A model generated the notes under the pieces. The model did not search any database and had not been told where the DNA came from. It was given only the letters and a program-made list of their open reading frames with translations. The position numbers and the translations under genes are program-made. A stretch of 36,039 nt of DNA, from the IMG/VR virus record IMGVR_UViG_3300025646_000157, positions 1-36,039 of that record; one strand, 5' to 3'. Position 1 is the first letter of the stretch. Every line of letters begins with the position of its first letter. Below, piece by piece: positions 16,343-36,039 of this stretch. This DNA is from a virus.

Positions 16343-17224
16343 ATGGCTGCCAGGACCTTTGGCAACATCGACCCGGGCTGTTTGACATCCGGACAGCTAG
16401 AGGCTTTGGCGGCTGTAGGCATCGAAAGCGACGATCTAGTCGATACAAGTTGCGATGCAGCTTCGCTGAATACATGTGGCCGCGATGCCAATGAACTGGT
16501 AACACTTTACCCCTTGTACGATGAGGGCAAGGGTGTTTATACGGCCTGGGGGGAAATCGCCCTACCCTGGAACCACGAAGATCCTGTCAGCGACGAGAGT
16601 TGGCAAGTCTCAACATTCACGGACGAATTCTCATATCGCACGGGTGATACCGTATCCCGTTACGAGGATGACGGTTACGTCGTTGCGGTGTATACCTCCA
16701 TTGCGAACGTGCCCGCCCCGGCCGGAGCCTTTAACCCAACATCGTGGTCCAAGGTATGTTCGGTTACCGTATCCGAACCAGTAGGACTACCCGAGTACAC
16801 CAAACTCTTGGACAAATACGAGTACTACGATACGTCGTCGACAACTACGGCTTCGTCGGAATTCGACTCTACTTGGTCAACTGATCCCGTAGACCCTGAC
16901 AACGATCAGTGGGGTGCTGCGGAAATCGAAAAAGATTACCTTTACAGGGCAGGAGACACCGTACTACATGATACAGGGTGTGGCGACTACACTTGCGTCT
17001 ATGTCGCCCTGGCCGATGTCCCCATCGATGTTGTTAACGAACCGCCCCCCTCATCCCACTGGGAACGACTTTATTGTGTCCGGAACGGAAAGCCCAACAC
17101 CTGCGTTAAGCGTGTCACTTGCACAGAACCGAACCGTGAGGTCGTATCGCTTAGTAACGGCGACTCTGATCTGATTTGCGTTCCCGTTGAAAGCACTACA
17201 GGGATTAGACCGAGGCTTGTATAG
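16343..17224 (+). CDS. Cys-rich virion protein with two CBM-like repeats, 293 aa
   Basis: I chose the ATG at 16343 (MAARTFGNIDPGCLTSGQLE) because the longer GTG-started frame overlaps the tail tube gene. Two related modules are visible: SYRTGDTVSRYEDDGYVVAV followed by YTSIANVP...W, and YRAGDTVLHDTGCGDYTCVY followed by VALADVP...HW. The Y-x-x-GD-x-V...Y...P...W pattern recalls small carbohydrate-binding modules of the chitin-binding type. At least ten cysteines are spread through the protein. The next gene's GTG overlaps its TAG stop by one base, so the two are probably coupled; a neck, tail-tip or fibre-attachment role is inferred. Confidence 0.7.
   Translation: MAARTFGNIDPGCLTSGQLEALAAVGIESDDLVDTSCDAASLNTCGRDANELVTLYPLYDEGKGVYTAWGEIALPWNHEDPVSDESWQVSTFTDEFSYRTGDTVSRYEDDGYVVAVYTSIANVPAPAGAFNPTSWSKVCSVTVSEPVGLPEYTKLLDKYEYYDTSSTTTASSEFDSTWSTDPVDPDNDQWGAAEIEKDYLYRAGDTVLHDTGCGDYTCVYVALADVPIDVVNEPPPSSHWERLYCVRNGKPNTCVKRVTCTEPNREVVSLSNGDSDLICVPVESTTGIRPRLV
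17186..17205 (+). promoter_or_regulatory. GTTGAAAGC promoter motif before the large tail fibre
   Basis: Reads GTTGAAAGCACTACAGGGAT, entirely inside the last codons (PVESTTG) of the preceding gene, 29 bases before the GTG of the fibre. Confidence 0.6.
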
Positions 17225-20200
17225 TGGCAACAAACACATATGGCAGATCGTGTACCCCGAATAAAGGGGGAGTACAGGACTATTATACAAAATCGGAAGT
17301 CAATACGTTACTCGGTGCCAAAGCTAATATCAGCACGGTTTATACCAAATCCTATGTAGACGGCGAACTATCGACGCTATCCAGCAGTATCGCATCACTC
17401 GATGCGGACAAAATCGACCAGACGCAACTCGACACCGCGCTTACTACGTTACAGGGGGCGATCGAGGCTAGTGTCGCTGCCACGTACGCAACTCTCGCCG
17501 ATACGTACACCATATCACAGGTCGACTCCATAATCGCGGCTATCGACCTCGATCCAGCGGACTACGTCCGCTCGGTACCAACGACCACGTCGCAGAATAC
17601 GATATACCCCGGAGCGGCCGATGCTATCGCCCTTACGGTGCGTGGCTCGGACACCAACTCAATCGTCACCCGGTGGCTAGATAACACCAGCAACGTAATC
17701 GGTTACATCAGCAACTCCGGTTCCACCACCCTGAACGGTGCGCTTTCTGTAGGTAGTTCCGTATCAGAAGGTAGCATTGGAATTAATGTTAATAATCGCC
17801 GCATCAGCGGTGTAGCTGCCCCTGTACTTCCATCTGACGCTGTACCCTACAGCACGTTACAGTCATATGTTCTAGATTTTTATGAGGACATTACAGTCCC
17901 GGAAGGAAGTTTTTCCTCCCTTAATGCTGGTACTTATCCCACACTCGACCCTTCACGGGACATTTATCGTCACCTAAGAAGCAGTATGAGTCAAGAAAGG
18001 CCACTGGGTGTGAGCCTGTATGACGGTGAGATAGCAGTCAATTATAATTCTGACAGTCCCGCCCTCTTCATCAGAGATAATCTCGGAAATATCCGAAAAA
18101 TAGGCCCAGCCCATATCGGTGACAATTCTCCTGTTCCCGTTAACAACACTGATCTTTCTGACGGTGAGCTGTGGATCAATAGATCCGAAGAGTCTGTTAA
18201 TTTCTACGATTCTATTAGCGATAGCTGGATCAGAGCGGGCACTGCTAATGGTGTTAGGTATCAAAATTGCATATACGTATCCAAGAGCGGTAACGACTCC
18301 AATAGTGGTGAGATTGATTCACCGTTTTTGACAGTAAGACAGGCATCTTTGGTTGCCCAACCTGGTGACGTCGTTTACATTTCACCTGGTACCTACACGG
18401 AGACTTCTCTACCAATACGGTGGAAACGAGATGTTGCCGTATTTGGGTCCGGATTACGTTCCACAATTGTTCAACCGGCACCTGGACAAGAGTTTAATGA
18501 TATTTTCAAGGTTGACTCAGGATTTTGGTGCTGGGGTCTTAGTTTTGCTGGTCACCAGGCTGATGAAACTCAACAAGCCTGGGCCATCTCATTTGATGAA
18601 CTAGCCAATAATACAAACATCGGTGCCATTGGGTCAGGTGCGTTTATCTTTAAGTCTCCGTATATTCAAAACTGTACCAGTATCACTGCAGAAGACGACT
18701 CTGGTGTTGCACCTTCTCAGTCCACTGGCAACACAGGGGGCGGCCTTAAGATTGATGGAGACCAGTGTGCGATCAATTCACCAATTCGCTCCATGGTGGT
18801 TGATAGTTATACGCATGTAAATCTGGGTGGCCCCGGCTGTCTCGTTAAGAACGACGGTTACGCGCAGCTTGTTAGTTTCTTTGGCCTATTTTGTACTTAC
18901 CATGTCCGTAGCGAAACGGGCGGCCAGGTAAACCTCAGTGGTGGTGGAACTACGGATTTCGGTATCTATGGTTTAATGGCCGACGGCTATAGCCCCAAAC
19001 CCGTCTTTACTGGTGAGTCTAGGGTATTTACTTATGGGGCGATTAGGGTCGAAAAAGGTGTCACAATTGATGTAACAACTGACTTGTTCACTTCAGTTGA
19101 CCATGGACTGGTTGTAGACGATCAGATTACTCTTTCGGCTACTGATGGCAGCCTTCCTACAGGTCTGAGTAACAACACAACATATTATGTGGTTTCCAAC
19201 GGGTTAACAGTAGACACTTTTAGGGTGTCTGATACCCCAGGCGACACATCTTACATCGATGTCTCTGGAGATTCTTCTGGGACCTATCAGTTCCTACGTC
19301 AAGGCTCGACAGAGATTGATATCATTGATTTCTCAGCTAACAGACTAGGACTTCAAAAGAAGTATCCCACTGCTGGTAGTACAGGATCTTTTGGCAACCC
19401 TGTCACCGTCAGTGCCATAGATGGTAACAATTTTACTGTAACACTTGACACCAGTGACATTGTTCATGAGTATGTAGGAGGTGGTTCTGTAACCGTAGGA
19501 GGTACTGAAACTTACCTTGTAACAAGTGCACAGTACAATAATCTGACCGGTGAAACAGTAATCAACGCCACAGGGTACGTTCCCTCTTTAGGGGACAGTA
19601 TTACGCTGTCTGACCTATCTTTTATCTGTAATTCGACTTCTCGGCCCTTTGCGGGTCAGTTAATGTTCCCGCAACTGATTTTCCCAAGAAACGCTGTAAC
19701 CGGGGCACCGGAGACAAAAACATTCGCTTACACTCGCACCGGAGACTACACTCTAACTTATACCGAAGCGGCTTCTCCATCTGGTCCGGATCATGAGTAC
19801 GTTGAGGGTGGTACTGTTGTCATCGGTGGTACGGACTATGGTGTTTCCAATGCAGTGTATGATAAGTCCACTGGAGTTGTAGAAATAACAACAGTTCTTC
19901 AGTTACCATCAGGTGACGGTAACGCCGATGTCGGGGGTTTAGTATTTATCTGCCCTGACGGCGCCTATATTATAACCAGTAGCGCTGCTATTGATCAAAA
20001 TGGCAATGTTATTGCTGAAGATTCACCGTTAAAGGTAGGGTATCGCGTCCAGTTCTACTCAGGACTAAATGGTGGCCTAAGAATTCCCATCGATCCCGGT
20101 CAAGTACTGGATTTCCGTAACCGATCTCAGATTACTGCCCCTTCTCATACATTTGAATACGTTGGAAGCGGTACTAACTACGATGCATTACCTTGGAATG

Positions 20201-22491
20201 GGGGGATACCGATCCCCGAAAACTCGATTGTTGAAACCAATAATGGTAGAGTATATGGGACAAATACAAACGAGAAAGGTGACTTCTCTGTTGGATCTCA
20301 GTTTAGTGTTGATGGAACCACGGGCAGCGTCACCATTAATACAGATCAGTTTAATCTATCCGGTCTCAATTTTATTGGACCATTTAGCCGCAATGGTGGC
20401 ATAAGTACCGTTGGTGAGCAATTACGTGAAATCAGTAACAATACATCGCTAATTTCTTCTCTCGGGAATTCAGATCCAAATACTGTACCCTCCCAGTTTG
20501 CCGTCAGAACCTTTGTAACTAATACTTTTCTTCAGGATGTTAGTGCGACGGCCGGTTCTTTTCTAGTTATTACCGACACCAGCACTCAGGACGGACAAGG
20601 ATACTGGACTCGAACCCGTAACCTCGATGTTGAATCCGGGTATTCAATACCAAGCACTGCGAGTCAGACTAATTGGGATACCGCTTATAGCGAACGTTTA
20701 TACTGGGATGGTGGATCGAGTGGACTCGATGCTACTACGGGTCGCACAAGTCTCGGTCTCGGTGACAGCGCCACACTCAATGTAGGGACTACGTCTGGAA
20801 CGGTCGCTGCAGGTGATGATAGCCGATTTGTTACTGCTGGTGGTACTACTGGACAAGCACTGGTCAAAGTTAGTAATACGGATTACGATACTCAATGGGC
20901 TGATGTTACCGCTGTTGCCGTACTTAACGACCTTACTGATGTATCCATAAGTACACCTCTCGGCGGACAAGTACTGGAATACGATGATGTTAGTGGTCAG
21001 TGGGTTAGTGGTGTTGTCGATACATCAAACCTAGGCGGCGACATTACGACTGCCGGTAAGGCACTGCTTGATGATGCAGATGCTGCAGCACAGCGCACCA
21101 CACTGGGGCTGGTTATTGGCACCGATGTTCAGGCATACGACGCCGACACGGCCAAGACTGATGTTGCTCAGACGTTTACAGCAGCTCAGACGTTCGGCGC
21201 TGACGTAACCCTCAACGCGCAGTCTGACCTACGTTTTGCTGATGCAGACAGTAGCAACTGGGTCGCCTTCCAAGCACCGGCGACAGTATCGGCGAATGTT
21301 ACTTGGACACTGCCCGCCGCCGATGGTACAAGCGGTCAGGTGCTCAGCACTGATGGCGCTGGTGTACTGAGCTGGGTAACAGGCGGCGGCGGTGGTGGCA
21401 TCACGGACGGCGATAAGGGCGATATTACGGTTTCGGGTAGTGGCGCCACTTGGACGATTGACGCTGGCGTCGTCAGCACCAGCAAGCTCGGAGGAGACGT
21501 CACCACAGCCGGCAAGGCGCTGTTGGACGACGCGGATGCGGCAGCGCAGCGAACAACACTGGGGCTGGTTATTGGCACCGATGTTCAGGCATATGACGCC
21601 GACACGGCCAAGACTGATGTTGCTCAGACGTTTACAGCAGCTCAGACGTTCGGCGCTGACGTAACCCTCAACGCACAATCTGACCTGCGGTTTGCTGATG
21701 CAGATAGCAGCAACTGGGTTGCCTTCCAGGCACCGGCAACAGTATCTGCAAACGTCACTTGGACGCTACCTGCTGCTGACGGCACAAGCGGTCAGGTGCT
21801 TAGCACCGATGGCTCTGGAACGCTGAGCTGGGCAACAGGCGGCGGTGGTGGGGCTACTCCTGCGGGCGTGTCTGGTTCGATCCAGATTAACGATGGTGCT
21901 GGTGCCCTTGGTGCAGTAACCGACTTCATCTGGGACTCTGCCAACACTGAGCTGGATGTTCCTGGTGATATCAGCCTTGATGACGGTGGCACATTTACCA
22001 CCACGATCCAAAGCATCACCGCCACTGCTGATCGCTACATCAGCTTCCCGGATCAGACGGGTGTTGTTGCTTTGGTAAGCGGCATCAACGGGGCTGTCCA
22101 GTTCAACAACGCTGGCTATGCGGGTGGTTCTGCCTTGGTGGTTGATGCCACTACGAAAGCATTTGGCTATGGCAGCGATGGCGGCACAATCACTCAAGTC
22201 ACCAACAAAAGCACTGGTGTGACGCTGAATAAGCCCACCGGACGCATCACTATGAACGCTGCTGCTTTGGCAGCGGATACAACAGTAACTTTCACCCTAA
22301 CCAACAGCTCAATTGGAGATAATGACCTCCTTGTGCTAAATCATGTCAGCGGGGGGACTGCTGGGTCATATTTGTTGAATGCTCAGTGTGCGGCGGGCTC
22401 TGCTTCCATCAACGTGCGTAACGTTACCGCCGCAAGCCTCAGCGAAGCGATTGTTATCGGTTTCGCAGTTATCAAATCCACCACTGTCTAA
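17224..22491 (+). CDS. Large tail fibre with beta-helix domain, 1755 aa
   Basis: It starts at a GTG overlapping the previous stop. The order of parts is as follows. An N-terminal segment has repeated YTKSEVNTLL / YTKSYVDGEL helices typical of trimeric fibre necks. A right-handed beta-helix begins near residue 350 (YVSKSGNDSNSG, then PFLTVRQASLVAQPGDVVYI) and extends to about 620. Next comes a VDHGLVVDDQITLSATDGSL module, then two related HEYV-x-GG-x-V-x-x-GGT modules (about 740 and 860). Two 152-residue repeats (about 1270-1420 and 1422-1575) contain AYDADTAKTDVAQTFTAAQT, and a distal domain ends near VIGFAVIKSTTV. Such proteins bind host surface glycans or lipopolysaccharide; no glycosidase residue can be assigned. 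The middle of the gene is noticeably more AT-rich than the flanking virion genes. Confidence 0.85.
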   Translation: MATNTYGRSCTPNKGGVQDYYTKSEVNTLLGAKANISTVYTKSYVDGELSTLSSSIASLDADKIDQTQLDTALTTLQGAIEASVAATYATLADTYTISQVDSIIAAIDLDPADYVRSVPTTTSQNTIYPGAADAIALTVRGSDTNSIVTRWLDNTSNVIGYISNSGSTTLNGALSVGSSVSEGSIGINVNNRRISGVAAPVLPSDAVPYSTLQSYVLDFYEDITVPEGSFSSLNAGTYPTLDPSRDIYRHLRSSMSQERPLGVSLYDGEIAVNYNSDSPALFIRDNLGNIRKIGPAHIGDNSPVPVNNTDLSDGELWINRSEESVNFYDSISDSWIRAGTANGVRYQNCIYVSKSGNDSNSGEIDSPFLTVRQASLVAQPGDVVYISPGTYTETSLPIRWKRDVAVFGSGLRSTIVQPAPGQEFNDIFKVDSGFWCWGLSFAGHQADETQQAWAISFDELANNTNIGAIGSGAFIFKSPYIQNCTSITAEDDSGVAPSQSTGNTGGGLKIDGDQCAINSPIRSMVVDSYTHVNLGGPGCLVKNDGYAQLVSFFGLFCTYHVRSETGGQVNLSGGGTTDFGIYGLMADGYSPKPVFTGESRVFTYGAIRVEKGVTIDVTTDLFTSVDHGLVVDDQITLSATDGSLPTGLSNNTTYYVVSNGLTVDTFRVSDTPGDTSYIDVSGDSSGTYQFLRQGSTEIDIIDFSANRLGLQKKYPTAGSTGSFGNPVTVSAIDGNNFTVTLDTSDIVHEYVGGGSVTVGGTETYLVTSAQYNNLTGETVINATGYVPSLGDSITLSDLSFICNSTSRPFAGQLMFPQLIFPRNAVTGAPETKTFAYTRTGDYTLTYTEAASPSGPDHEYVEGGTVVIGGTDYGVSNAVYDKSTGVVEITTVLQLPSGDGNADVGGLVFICPDGAYIITSSAAIDQNGNVIAEDSPLKVGYRVQFYSGLNGGLRIPIDPGQVLDFRNRSQITAPSHTFEYVGSGTNYDALPWNGGIPIPENSIVETNNGRVYGTNTNEKGDFSVGSQFSVDGTTGSVTINTDQFNLSGLNFIGPFSRNGGISTVGEQLREISNNTSLISSLGNSDPNTVPSQFAVRTFVTNTFLQDVSATAGSFLVITDTSTQDGQGYWTRTRNLDVESGYSIPSTASQTNWDTAYSERLYWDGGSSGLDATTGRTSLGLGDSATLNVGTTSGTVAAGDDSRFVTAGGTTGQALVKVSNTDYDTQWADVTAVAVLNDLTDVSISTPLGGQVLEYDDVSGQWVSGVVDTSNLGGDITTAGKALLDDADAAAQRTTLGLVIGTDVQAYDADTAKTDVAQTFTAAQTFGADVTLNAQSDLRFADADSSNWVAFQAPATVSANVTWTLPAADGTSGQVLSTDGAGVLSWVTGGGGGGITDGDKGDITVSGSGATWTIDAGVVSTSKLGGDVTTAGKALLDDADAAAQRTTLGLVIGTDVQAYDADTAKTDVAQTFTAAQTFGADVTLNAQSDLRFADADSSNWVAFQAPATVSANVTWTLPAADGTSGQVLSTDGSGTLSWATGGGGGATPAGVSGSIQINDGAGALGAVTDFIWDSANTELDVPGDISLDDGGTFTTTIQSITATADRYISFPDQTGVVALVSGINGAVQFNNAGYAGGSALVVDATTKAFGYGSDGGTITQVTNKSTGVTLNKPTGRITMNAAALAADTTVTFTLTNSSIGDNDLLVLNHVSGGTAGSYLLNAQCAAGSASINVRNVTAASLSEAIVIGFAVIKSTTV
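21031..21855 (+). repeat. Two 456-bp-period repeats within the tail fibre
   Basis: Unit one starts at 21031 and unit two at 21487. The encoded protein is almost identical in both. At DNA level the outer parts differ at many synonymous sites, but 21101-21218 and 21557-21674 are identical except for one base (C/T in ATACGA/ATATGA). Confidence 0.9.
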
Positions 22492-24520: not shown

Positions 24521-25269
24521 GTCCGATTTCTATTCCGGGGAAGGTGACGTTGCAGAAAAATACTGTCAGCAACGTCACCGCCTATATCCAATCTTCTGGT
24601 ATTGTGTCTGACGGGCTGAGCTTACTATTGGATGCTGGCACACCCCTTTCGTATCCTGGCACCGGCACTACTTGGACTGATATAAGTGGCAATGGTAATA
24701 ATGCTGCTTTAACGAATGGACCGACTTTTAGTAGTGCTAATGGTGGGTCTTTGAGTTTTGATGGAGTGAATGACTATTCGACAATATCACACTCCTCTTC
24801 TTTAAATTTCCCTACCGCTCTTACGATCTCGGTGTGGTATTATAGCGGAAATGCTGAACATTACTTATACTTAAAGGGAAGAACCGACATCGATGACTAT
24901 AACCCATTAGTGTATGCAAATGGAATATATGGATGGACTGGGCCAAGTGGAAGATCTTTTTACCATCCACCTACTGGATACATTCAAACTAACACTTGGT
25001 ATAATTTGGCAGTAACACACATTAGTGGCAGTGATCCGATAATGTATAGAAATTCAATACCATCAACCTCTTATGTTTATACTGAAGGAAGTGGAGTTCG
25101 TGCTTTAGGGACTAATTCATACCTAGTTAGCATAAATGCTGATGTTCCTAGGAATCAGATTGGAACTTTTAATGGAAAAATTGCATCTATTCAGGCATAC
25201 AACAGAGCACTCACAGCAGCAGAAATCCAACAAAACTACAACGCCCTTAAGTGGAGGTTCGGACTGTGA
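24517..25269 (+). CDS. LamG/concanavalin-like fibre protein, 250 aa
   Basis: After a short N-terminal strand region, residues about 30-245 form a LamG-type beta-sandwich: SLLLDAGTPLSYPGTGTTWT, DISGNGNNAALTNGPTF, SLSFDGVNDYSTI, then LTISVWYYS, the strand TWYNLAVTHISGS and the closing GKIASIQAYNRALTAAEIQQ NY. These landmarks are standard for laminin-G-like domains that bind sugars. The gene is strikingly AT-rich compared with the sheath or portal genes, which points to acquisition from a lower-GC phage. The stop overlaps the next start as GTGA. Confidence 0.8.
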   Translation: MSPISIPGKVTLQKNTVSNVTAYIQSSGIVSDGLSLLLDAGTPLSYPGTGTTWTDISGNGNNAALTNGPTFSSANGGSLSFDGVNDYSTISHSSSLNFPTALTISVWYYSGNAEHYLYLKGRTDIDDYNPLVYANGIYGWTGPSGRSFYHPPTGYIQTNTWYNLAVTHISGSDPIMYRNSIPSTSYVYTEGSGVRALGTNSYLVSINADVPRNQIGTFNGKIASIQAYNRALTAAEIQQNYNALKWRFGL

Positions 25270-26651
25270 CCTACAAACTAACCAAAACCTCCCTCAACCC
25301 TGACCCTTATTACGGTGCGGTGTCACTGCTGTTGAGCGGAGATGGTGCGAATAACAGCACCGACATTCGGGATAGCAGCCGCAATACAAAGGTGGTGACG
25401 GCGGTTGCGGATGCAAAGATCAGTACGGCGCAGAGTAAGTGGAACGGAAGCAGTATTGCGTTTGATGGGAGTGGGGATTATTTGACTGTCCCAAGTAGTG
25501 CTGCCTTTGAGTTTGGCACTGGAGATTTTACGATTGAAGGGTGGTGGCGGCGAACTTCCGACACCCTTGGCGGCATTCTTGACTTTGGAATGAACTATGG
25601 AGGAATTGGTATATATCAGCAGCTTGACGTAGATTATAGTCCCCTCTTGATCGTTAGAGTAGCAGGGACTGACGTAATTACAACGTTAAACTTTTCAGCA
25701 AATCAGTTTGTCCATCTTGCCTTGTCGCGTTCGGGGACATCCTTGCGTTTGTTTTACGATGGCACACAACAAGGCAGCACAGTCTCTAATTCCACAAATC
25801 TTGTCAACACTTTTGGGACGGTTGTTATCGGAGCCTTTGTTTCTGGCGGTAGTTCTTTCCTTACTCCAGCCGCTAATTTAGACGACCTCCGCATCACCAA
25901 AGGCGTCGCTCGCTACACCAGTAACTTCACCCCTCCGACGCAGCCGTTCCAAGCTTTTATACGTCCTGATCAGGATCCATACTTCTACGCAACTAGCCTG
26001 CTGCTACACGGCGATGGCGCTAATGGGAGTACTACGATCACGGATAGCAGTCCGTCGCCTAAGACCGTCACTGCATATGGTGACGCTCAGATCAGCACGG
26101 CACAGAGTAAGTTTGGCGGTAGCAGCATCTATTTTGATGGAAGTGGAGACTATCTAAACATAGGATATAACGGGGGAGCTTTTGATTTTGGATCTAGCGA
26201 CTGGACGGTAGAGTTCTGGATTTATCTGCCTTCCTTGCCTAATGCTTACAAGAGGATATACAGCTATATAAATGGGAATACAGAGGCTTGTTTTTTTGAA
26301 CTAACAAATTCAAATAAAATGAGTTTTGGTGTATATTTCGACCCAACCCCAAGTGGGTATATTGCTACAGATCCATCAGCCATGACAAGCGGTGCCTGGA
26401 TGCACTTTGCGGGAGTTAGGAATGGTTCAAGTCTCTTGCTTTTTCGGGAAGGAATTCAAGTTGCCAGCGTAACTGTTGGGACAAACTCAGTAAACGGGGG
26501 TTCAGGCTATGAACTGTTTATCGGCAAATGGAAATCTACCGATACTACGCGAGACCTTAACGCCTACATCGACGAATATCGCGTCACCCCAGGCATCGCC
26601 CGTTACACCAGTAACTTCAGCCTTCCCCCTGCACCGTTCCCTAATTTCTAA
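25266..26651 (+). CDS. Double LamG-domain fibre protein, 461 aa
   Basis: I chose the GTG at 25266 because GGAGG lies eight bases upstream and the start overlaps the previous stop; a GTG at 25251 would add five residues. Two LamG domains follow each other (about residues 15-225 and 235-460). Each has LLLSGDGANNSTDIRDSS- or LLLHGDGANGSTTITDSS-like starts, an ISTAQSK...GSSI-x-FDGSGDYL strand, a DFTIEGWW / DWTVEFWI strand, and ends in GVARYTSNFTPPTQPF or GIARYTSNFSLPPAPF. The last 72 bases have a decayed relative at 5437-5508. It is likely a sugar-binding distal fibre subunit. It converges with the leftward gene at 26648, the stops sharing CTAA. Confidence 0.85.
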   Translation: MTYKLTKTSLNPDPYYGAVSLLLSGDGANNSTDIRDSSRNTKVVTAVADAKISTAQSKWNGSSIAFDGSGDYLTVPSSAAFEFGTGDFTIEGWWRRTSDTLGGILDFGMNYGGIGIYQQLDVDYSPLLIVRVAGTDVITTLNFSANQFVHLALSRSGTSLRLFYDGTQQGSTVSNSTNLVNTFGTVVIGAFVSGGSSFLTPAANLDDLRITKGVARYTSNFTPPTQPFQAFIRPDQDPYFYATSLLLHGDGANGSTTITDSSPSPKTVTAYGDAQISTAQSKFGGSSIYFDGSGDYLNIGYNGGAFDFGSSDWTVEFWIYLPSLPNAYKRIYSYINGNTEACFFELTNSNKMSFGVYFDPTPSGYIATDPSAMTSGAWMHFAGVRNGSSLLLFREGIQVASVTVGTNSVNGGSGYELFIGKWKSTDTTRDLNAYIDEYRVTPGIARYTSNFSLPPAPFPNF

Positions 26652-33805: not shown

Positions 33806-36039
33806 GTGCACAGCCTATATCGCTGCCGGTGTACTGTAGCCTATCGCCCCTATGCGAGTAGCCGGCTAATCGTTTTTCACGAAAAACAGGTATCGAACGC
33901 CTCGATCAATCTGTCTTGGCGCTCGAACATTACCGGCATGAATCTCGAGTATCAGACCGAGATTTCTCATTTCACCAGTGCCCTCAGCGATTCGACACTC
34001 CAGGTGACGCTGACCGACCCGTATATGACCGGTGTCGCCTGGGCAGCACTGTTTGATAGTGCGGCGGCGTATGGGAATGTGAGCCAGGCGGCAGCGAACC
34101 ATATTATGTTGCCGGCCTGCCAAGAAGGAGAAGAACCCGCCTCGGGCAAGTGTCGACCTTTTCCTGAGATCGAGGACCCTAATCTACACAAATCACTGTT
34201 CGGCAGCTTTGCCCATATCCGGGCAACACTTTGGTACGAGGTGGCGGGCACCAAGTTCGCGCTGGATACATATTTTCGGTTACAGAGCTTCCGGATTACC
34301 CATGGCCGCTCGTATCCCCAAGTAACTTTGTTGGGAGTACAGCCCCAGATGGTTGCGTTCAACCAAACCTTATCGAACTTCCAGCTAAAGGAGAACGAGA
34401 CACTAGAAAATAATCTCAAGACCATTATCGAACAAGAGTTCGATCACCGTGTCACGTTCTGCACCGACCCGACGGGCGAAGAAAGCGTAAAAACTTACCT
34501 AATGCCTCGCTCTTTCAAGGAGAAGAATGTTACGGCCGAAGAGGTCATTAGCAAATACGTAAACAGCGTAGGCGGCACGTATCAAGCATTACCTATCAAA
34601 GAATACGTAAACAAAATATCGTTGTGTACACGGGCCAATATTAACCAAGGCTGCTCAGTGTTTTATCTGGGCAAAGGCCTTTACGAGGGTTACGAACTCT
34701 CTGGACAAGTGGATCGCAACTTGCTGAATGCGAACGCTGAATACGATACGTATCGCGGGCTCGGCTACAACTACAGCAAAGACGCCTTGGGTGAAGATGA
34801 GACCGTCACGATCGACAATATTTATCCGCAACGCCGAAAGGCCAAATTCGAAAAAGCCCGCACCGACCTCGTTTCGTTCAATGGGCAATTTGGTCCCTTG
34901 GACAAACGCCTCAGCGATGCATACACCAACTCACAGTTGATTTGGGAAGGTGGTGGCCCCGAGGTGACCACGAAAAGAGCGAAAAAGATCAATATGTACG
35001 GGATCTCGGTAACAGGTAACGAGCCCATCGCCCTGCTGGATGGTACGGTACAAGGGTCGCTGTCTAAGGATAATGGCCGTGTTGTGATCGCCACTAACTA
35101 CTTCTTACGGTTTTGCGGTCAAAACAACAAGTGCAGGAATAAGCCGATCTATCAGGAGACTGTTAATTTGGCAACCATTGAAGACAATATCACCCCCGGC
35201 ACTGAGGTCAAGATGAACCAGAAACTCGGTACCGCCACCGCAGAGAGGCCGGAGTTCGTACGTTTTTATATACCAGGATCTATAAGTACGGTAAGTCAGA
35301 TTACCATATCCCCAAGTATTGTATGGAAATATGCCGTCCCGGTCAAAAAGCTGACCGACGAGGAGAGAAAAAAGATCGGATTGGAGGAGACCGGCAATCC
35401 GCAATCACCCTCGTCTCCCGCTCAGGGTGAAAGGGGAATTTTTGTCGGCAGGGTCGGTAGTACGGGGAGAAGTACTGGCGCACACCTTCATGTCCAATGG
35501 GTAGATGGGAGATTTATCGACATTGATATGGTAAAAAAGTATGTTGATGTGGCTGGTAATGTGGATTCACTGCATGGAGAAGTGAGACCTACAGGTACAC
35601 ACAAAGGTGTCGACATTAATGGTAACGATCGCGCTCCCATCTATCTGATAAACGGTGCTACACTGAATAAGGTTGCCGAGACTAAATGTACTGTTGAGAG
35701 TGATGATAAAAATGATTGCGGTGACTACTTTGGCAACCACGTCTACATCGATACGCCCGAGGGCCAGATGATCCTTGCCCACTTGGCACCAGGGACCGTA
35801 AACAACGCAGCGGTAGGCGCGAAAAGCGGATCTAGGTACGGTACAGGCGTCCAAACAGCTCCTGCTACTACTGGTGCTGAGATTCAGACCGAATTCCGGG
35901 GTATTCCACGGGCCCTTCGGATTGTTCCGGGCCGCACAGTCCTGTCACTGGTCACTAGGTACGATGAGTGGATAGAGAAAGGTAGGCCGACCGATATCGA
36001 CCCGGGGATCTGGATTGCCGGCAGATTCTCTAAGTGGTT
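33806..36039 (+). CDS. Baseplate hub-like protein with permuted peptidase M23 signatures (partial, runs off right edge)
   Basis: An open frame with no stop from 33803 to the edge (at least 744 codons from the GTG at 33806; an ATG at 33938 would remove 44 residues, although NASINLSWRSNITG just before it looks real). The N-terminal 300 or so residues are hub-like (QVTLLGVQPQMVAFNQ, VISKYVNSVGGTYQALP). Near residue 560 it has GSTGRSTGAHLHVQW, the C-terminal zinc-ligand strand of M23 peptidases; 38 residues later comes THKGVDI (H599, D603), the N-terminal zinc-ligand motif; then GNHVYIDTPEGQMILAHLAP (H659). An earlier stretch (IALLDGTVQGSL, TPGTEVKMNQKLGTAT) looks like a degenerate M23 barrel. 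It probably cuts peptidoglycan during entry. Cysteine pairs occur at ACQEGEEPASGKC and CGQNNKC. Confidence 0.75.
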   Translation, partial: MHSLYRCRCTVAYRPYASSRLIVFHEKQVSNASINLSWRSNITGMNLEYQTEISHFTSALSDSTLQVTLTDPYMTGVAWAALFDSAAAYGNVSQAAANHIMLPACQEGEEPASGKCRPFPEIEDPNLHKSLFGSFAHIRATLWYEVAGTKFALDTYFRLQSFRITHGRSYPQVTLLGVQPQMVAFNQTLSNFQLKENETLENNLKTIIEQEFDHRVTFCTDPTGEESVKTYLMPRSFKEKNVTAEEVISKYVNSVGGTYQALPIKEYVNKISLCTRANINQGCSVFYLGKGLYEGYELSGQVDRNLLNANAEYDTYRGLGYNYSKDALGEDETVTIDNIYPQRRKAKFEKARTDLVSFNGQFGPLDKRLSDAYTNSQLIWEGGGPEVTTKRAKKINMYGISVTGNEPIALLDGTVQGSLSKDNGRVVIATNYFLRFCGQNNKCRNKPIYQETVNLATIEDNITPGTEVKMNQKLGTATAERPEFVRFYIPGSISTVSQITISPSIVWKYAVPVKKLTDEERKKIGLEETGNPQSPSSPAQGERGIFVGRVGSTGRSTGAHLHVQWVDGRFIDIDMVKKYVDVAGNVDSLHGEVRPTGTHKGVDINGNDRAPIYLINGATLNKVAETKCTVESDDKNDCGDYFGNHVYIDTPEGQMILAHLAPGTVNNAAVGAKSGSRYGTGVQTAPATTGAEIQTEFRGIPRALRIVPGRTVLSLVTRYDEWIEKGRPTDIDPGIWIAGRFSKW

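Follow-up and report, generated by a model that had tools for sequence, protein, structure and literature searches.

M23 peptidases are a common family of wall-cutting enzymes and are described with the HxxxD motif ahead of the HxH motif. In the hub-like tail protein gene at the end of the viral sequence analyzed here the same motifs come the other way round, and the question is whether they form one circularly permuted domain or two tandem M23 domains, each half degenerate, with a site shared between them, both of which had been put forward in a sequence-only reading of this DNA. Our answer, to which we give a probability of roughly 0.84, is that the phage is a relative of the S-TIM5 group cyanophages and that the gene encodes a hub-like virion protein of its tail tip, into which a self-contained, circularly permuted M23 metallopeptidase has been inserted that would cut the host wall at genome entry.

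The gene, its homologues, and its surroundings

The window is the whole of IMG/VR record IMGVR_UViG_3300025646_000157 (36039 bases), and all residue numbers count from the GTG start codon of its last ORF (Table 1). This start is plausible since it falls at the position where the homologues begin with MHSLYRC or MNSIYRC. Uncut homologous ORFs run to about 940–1280 codons, and the five that were scanned all end in a PF18013 (Phage_lysozyme2) domain, with E values from 1.5e-14 to 5.6e-23; the window chain stops, with the record, ahead of the lysozyme position. In a search against solved structures, the lysozyme part of the hub profile matches the lysozyme domain of phi29 gp13. The hub ORF sits among genes with tail fibre and baseplate wedge matches (17224–22488 and 25251–26648), and the record also holds matches to a portal protein, PhoH, and the thymidylate kinase family.

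Homologues were gathered by tblastn on 50,697 phage records and by scans of IMG/VR. The former returned five records, all S-TIM group cyanophages, 27.5–29.2% identical over residues 1–744. The virion protein of S-TIM5-type cyanophages (Aurunvirus, e.g., YP_007006114.1) is homologous over the full window protein, carries the same permuted cassette, and is annotated only as a virion structural protein. Of 49 sequences, 14 were exact duplicates and L133 was a fragment; without these, 34 distinct ORFs remained, window included, some of which are near-identical pairs.

Table 1. Features of the hub-like gene, with window coordinates and the evidence for each; fractions refer to the 34 distinct ORFs
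Feature	Coordinates	Strand	Evidence
Hub-like tail protein gene	33806..36037	+	Last ORF, GTG start, 744 codons; truncated at its 3' end, where the record stops
N-terminal part, residues 1–377	33806..34936	+	Conserved across homologues in the alignment (FYLGKGLY and others)
Degenerate M23-like domain in canonical order, residues 390–511	34973..35338	+	VIA on the model; Pfam M23 matches in homologues
Circularly permuted M23 peptidase cassette, residues 541–672	35426..35821	+	Fold prediction, reversed Pfam pieces, rotation, exchange as a unit
HLH motif (H560, H562), near the cassette start	35483..35491	+	H560 34/34; residue 562 H in 30/34, D in 4/34
Linker from HLH strand to HxxxD strand, 36 residues	35492..35599	+	35–53 residues across the 34 ORFs
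HxxxD motif (H599, D603)	35600..35614	+	H599 32/34, D603 34/34
Middle HL motif (H659, L660)	35780..35785	+	H659 34/34, L660 33/34
TTGAEIQTEF, hub segment resuming after the cassette	35867..35896	+	T695, G699, P701 34/34; outside the exchanged block in five pairs

Order and conservation of the motifs

The sequence-only reading was correct on the order and position of the motifs: GSTGRSTGAHLHVQW, THKGVDI (35597–35617, which holds H599 and D603), GNHVYI...LAHLAP, and TTGAEIQTEF follow one another in the ORF. Its linker of about 38 residues comes to 36 when counted from HLH to H599. It had also proposed a search for homologues with the same arrangement, and in 34/34 distinct ORFs the chain passes first through HxH or HxD, next through the HxxxD position, and last through HL.

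In an M23 review (PMC9662197), the zinc ligands are the H and D of HxxxD and the latter of the two His residues of HxH, the former of which is catalytic; the His of the middle HL is assigned a catalytic role from the same source and from what is established for M23 enzymes. Residue 562, the second His of the HLH, is Asp in L003, L004, L124, and L134, and the H599 position is Tyr in L127 and L128. Because of these two kinds of variant, some cassettes may be altered or inactive. L127 and L128 both have a His two residues before the Tyr (GHGYPGIDY), the zinc ligand being either lost or shifted.

If the domain kept the M23 fold and served as a wall-binding or structural module in the manner of the LytM factors, with no cleavage, one would understand the HLD variants, the two changes at H599, and the degenerate state of the M23-like copy upstream. 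We nevertheless regard this as unlikely, given that H560, D603, and H659 are kept in every ORF though the cassette otherwise diverges to 40–52% amino acid identity, the range found between the exchange partners described below.

Profile tests of the permutation

The Pfam M23 profile (PF01551) has 96 positions, and we compared it with the native cassettes of the window, L002, L007, L101, and L010 and with the same cassettes after rotation, that is, with the front part moved to the back. In the native cassettes, the early stretch corresponds to profile positions 65–87 and the later one to about 2–56, which is the reverse of the profile order; four of the five gave both stretches and L010 gave one. 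The better of the native stretches was the front one in the window, L101, and L010 and the later one in L002 and L007. After rotation, all five gave a single continuous match from position 2 to 87–91. The total score rose by 0.9–3.8 bits only, because the native pieces are already summed, and it is the single continuous span that counts.

Against the PF01551 cut-off of 28.7 bits, the window cassette alone scored 31.7 and the whole window protein 28.3, just under; the permutation helps to explain why such tail proteins score at or below threshold. PHROG 7767 is split likewise, with window residues 543–587 on profile positions 84–126 and L002 residues 583–668 on positions 6–89. The hub profile behaves in the same way against Gp16 of 9m7n (profile 592–656 on chain 788–860 and profile 534–563 on chain 868–897), where the two stretches are weak singly (E 0.083 and 0.11) and the whole hub profile matches with E 7.2e-16. 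The canonical layout, one continuous domain with HxxxD before HxH, was thus found reversed in 34/34 ORFs, and since a one-piece match appears only on rotation, the cassette should be classed as a permuted variant and not as a canonical member of M23.

As a control, contigs of cellular genomes were scanned with the HLH-strand motif of close cassettes (80 loci kept of 423 confirmed, a sample that is not random). A strict HxGxD lies upstream of HxH in 71/80 and a looser H..D in 8/80, while the remaining locus (L190) fits neither pattern and is canonical by eye. None of these 80 motif-drawn loci has an H..D motif downstream of HxH; therefore, the reversed order does not appear to be common among cellular M23 proteins as sampled in this non-random way.

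Predicted structure of the cassette

A model of the cassette alone (residues 541–672, 28 rows) was predicted as a compact single domain with pLDDT 86.6 and pTM 0.84, with strands at model residues 20–25 (HLHVQW) and 62–65. The longer model, of residues 378–744 (26 rows), has a mean pLDDT of 64.1.

When the cassette model was run through VIA, three M23 folds came out on top: 4rnz (Csd3; Z 5.8, 79 aligned, rmsd 3.1), 6u2a (ShyA; Z 5.3, 80 aligned, rmsd 2.5), and 5b0h (LECT2; Z 4.6). The next row has Z 3.4, and values of 5–6 are middling by the tool's own note. In the Csd3 alignment, model residues 34–132 are placed on chain residues 230–318, so that the later three quarters of the cassette are predicted to overlie the front of the Csd3 domain. 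The end of Csd3 that is absent from this alignment (319–360) would be represented, judged from the sequence, by the front part of the cassette.

Foldseek of the same model against the PDB gave nothing useful (best E 0.36), as expected because a sequential aligner should fail on a permuted fold. Against BFVD it gave four matches with E below 1e-3, proteins of S-TIM5 and P60 among them.

The degenerate M23-like domain upstream

The sequence-only reading had named a further complete M23 domain as something that might account for the motifs separately. An M23-like domain is indeed present at residues 390–511 (model part 13–134), where 9 of 993 VIA-aligned chains reach a Z of 8 or more, the best being again 4rnz (Csd3) with Z 8.6, 98 aligned, and rmsd 3.0 over chain residues 245–360. 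Pfam M23 also matches the equivalent region in L098 and L128. On reading the 34 aligned rows, neither HxxxD nor HxH was seen in this domain.

In all aligned homologues, this catalytically empty M23-like domain of canonical order sits directly upstream of the permuted one. Between the two, L003–L007 and L128 have an extra domain of about 200 amino acids (MAGHAD..., IEIHND...). In L005 and L007 it has no Pfam match; among PHROGs it matches only a baseplate family (PHROG 30576, best E 5.4e-15), and no credible sequence match to a solved structure came up (best E 0.015). To the eye it resembles an amidase, for which it is a candidate.

Exchange of the cassette between related phages

Twelve pairs of hubs were compared, and for five picked from these we recorded DNA identity over the 200 codons before the cassette, the block itself, and the 100 codons after. 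The hubs of S-TIM5 (L009) and S-TIM66 (L010) are 99.7% identical to the left, 50.6% in the block, and 98.3% to the right. The corresponding values are 98.8, 50.1, and 95.7 for L003/L007; 83.7, 47.5, and 87.9 for L105/L108; 95.8, 57.1, and 87.3 for L126/L127; and 95.8, 48.9, and 97.0 for L121/L134. Of the other pairs, L009/L011, L105/L107, L124/L134, and L121/L122 have their cassette in common, and in L003/L005, L005/L007, and L105/L110 the cassette differs too, along with further differences beside or within it.

In 5/5 exchanged pairs, the block begins 15–33 residues before HxH and ends 3–19 residues after the His of HL. HLH, HxxxD, and HL therefore travel together, and neither the M23-like domain upstream nor the TEFxGxP segment moves with them. 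This joint movement speaks against two half domains.

Under the tandem alternative, HLH would come from the 390–511 domain, and HxxxD and HL would belong to a second domain whose end strand has decayed to TTGAEIQTEF. It draws on the existence of a complete M23-like domain upstream and on the TEF segment standing where an end strand would be, but the upstream domain as it stands is matched by complete M23 domains, with an end strand of its own and no catalytic residues, and it lies outside the block, which holds HLH with HxxxD and HL and leaves out the TEF segment. The two Pfam pieces moreover cover parts of the profile that do not overlap, the cassette is predicted to fold alone, and the permuted unit also occurs in tape measure proteins (see below). 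We consider this alternative very improbable, and TTGAEIQTEF, which had been proposed as the place of a second HLH strand, is better described as a conserved segment of the hub. Phage tail hubs are usually trimers, which would suit a strand swap in which the HLH strand of one hub copy completes the barrel of its neighbour in the oligomer, but with a monomeric cassette predicted at pTM 0.84 and linkers of 35–53 residues we give this equally little credence.

A single, self-contained permuted domain is our preferred reading because the order is conserved, rotation restores the Pfam match, the cassette is predicted to fold by itself, and it is exchanged as a unit; the residues, the split PHROG pieces, and the VIA matches to M23 folds likewise support the circular permutation first suspected from the letters.

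Sharp differences between hubs that are otherwise nearly identical are seen in the C-terminal lysozyme part as well, from about residue 1097 in L005/L007 and from about residue 866 in L105/L108. Because of these sharp differences, the lysozyme part, too, seems to be exchanged (C-terminal parts of the L005, L007, L105, L107, and L108 hubs).

Proposed function and comparison with known systems

In the M23B peptidases (LytM, lysostaphin, ShyA, and Csd3), the HxH strand pair is last, whereas in the cassette it is first and the new chain ends lie in the loop after HL; the residues of HxxxD, of the middle H, and of HxH are the same, as are the profile positions that surround them. We propose that the chain would enter through the HxH strand pair, run along the linker to the strand that normally opens an M23 domain, and leave in the loop after the middle HL. 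Folding would then gather the zinc ligands H599, D603, and H562, and H560 and H659 would be the putative catalytic residues.

Cleavage of the wall at entry is most likely the role of the hub protein, by analogy, because its homologues end in a lysozyme that matches phi29 gp13, a tail-tip wall cutter. In phi29, according to the M23 review (PMC9662197), a tail-tip protein of the gp13 kind cuts the wall at infection. The hub, presumably at the tail tip, would cleave peptide cross-links in the host wall as the genome enters, jointly with its C-terminal tail lysozyme, and exchange of the cassette could tune specificity. Like the hub, phi29 gp13 (3csq) and Gp16 of 9m7n are virion proteins that combine a tail lysozyme with an M23 domain, but in these the lysozyme precedes a canonical M23 domain, whereas in the hub homologues the permuted M23 domain precedes the lysozyme. 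The clean swap of a cassette between hubs that are otherwise 98–99.7% identical opens to test the question of whether host choice is limited by a tail's specificity for wall peptides.

Full-text searches of open PMC papers listed no report of a permuted M23 domain, and the M23 review PMC9662197 has no word beginning with "permut." Circularly permuted NlpC/P60 peptidases, in which the catalytic residues of a peptidoglycan-cleaving fold come in a changed order, have been described (PMC6403190); these are an unrelated family of cysteine peptidases and a precedent only.

Other carriers of the permuted order

A search with the L007 cassette gave 53 records, including 24 from Acinetobacter and 2 from Moraxella, with the annotated rows being mostly tape measure proteins; for 21 Bacillus records and S-SRP01 the match is confined to the later half. 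GPHLD or GAHLD is followed by HxGxD and LLH in L012 (Acinetobacter) and L013 (Moraxella), and in phage S-EIVl, GAHLD is followed by HEGID and LLH. In phage P60 gp33, GPHLD is followed by GVD, where the His normally found four residues ahead of the D is missing, and then by VH and the chain end. This cyanopodovirus virion protein (L218:778-3780) has a weak tail-lysozyme match and then the M23-like domain of permuted order as its terminal part.

Profile comparisons used A1, a profile of hub cassettes only. L012 aligned with it (E 1.4e-11) over the HxD strand and the linker, up to the stretch after HxGxD, and for S-EIVl (E 3.6e-7) and P60 (E 7.8e-8) the alignment spans HxD strand, linker, and second half. 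The canonical BSP12 aligned in the later half only (E 3.5e-9). The linker shared by the hub cassettes, L012, S-EIVl, and P60 suggests one common permuted ancestor.

The odds are about even, in our view, that the permuted M23 domain is an old separate branch kept in phage virions whose tails may be contractile, short, or long and flexible, frequently with HxD, and that in S-TIM5-like hubs it acts as a plug-in cassette replaced as one unit, by which wall-cutting specificity can be changed without touching the rest of the hub. With a natural permuted M23 in more than one phage group, the fold would be seen to tolerate new ends, and such cassettes would be natural permuted lysins available for study.

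HLD in place of HLH occurs across several phage groups (L003, L004, L124, L134, L012, L013, L136, and L218) and would place an Asp where the zinc-binding His is expected. In Moraxella phage Mcat22 (L135:3001-3341), a break within the cassette, just after HRGID, divides the tape measure gene into two annotated ORFs, whereas in Mcat23 (L013) it is undivided.
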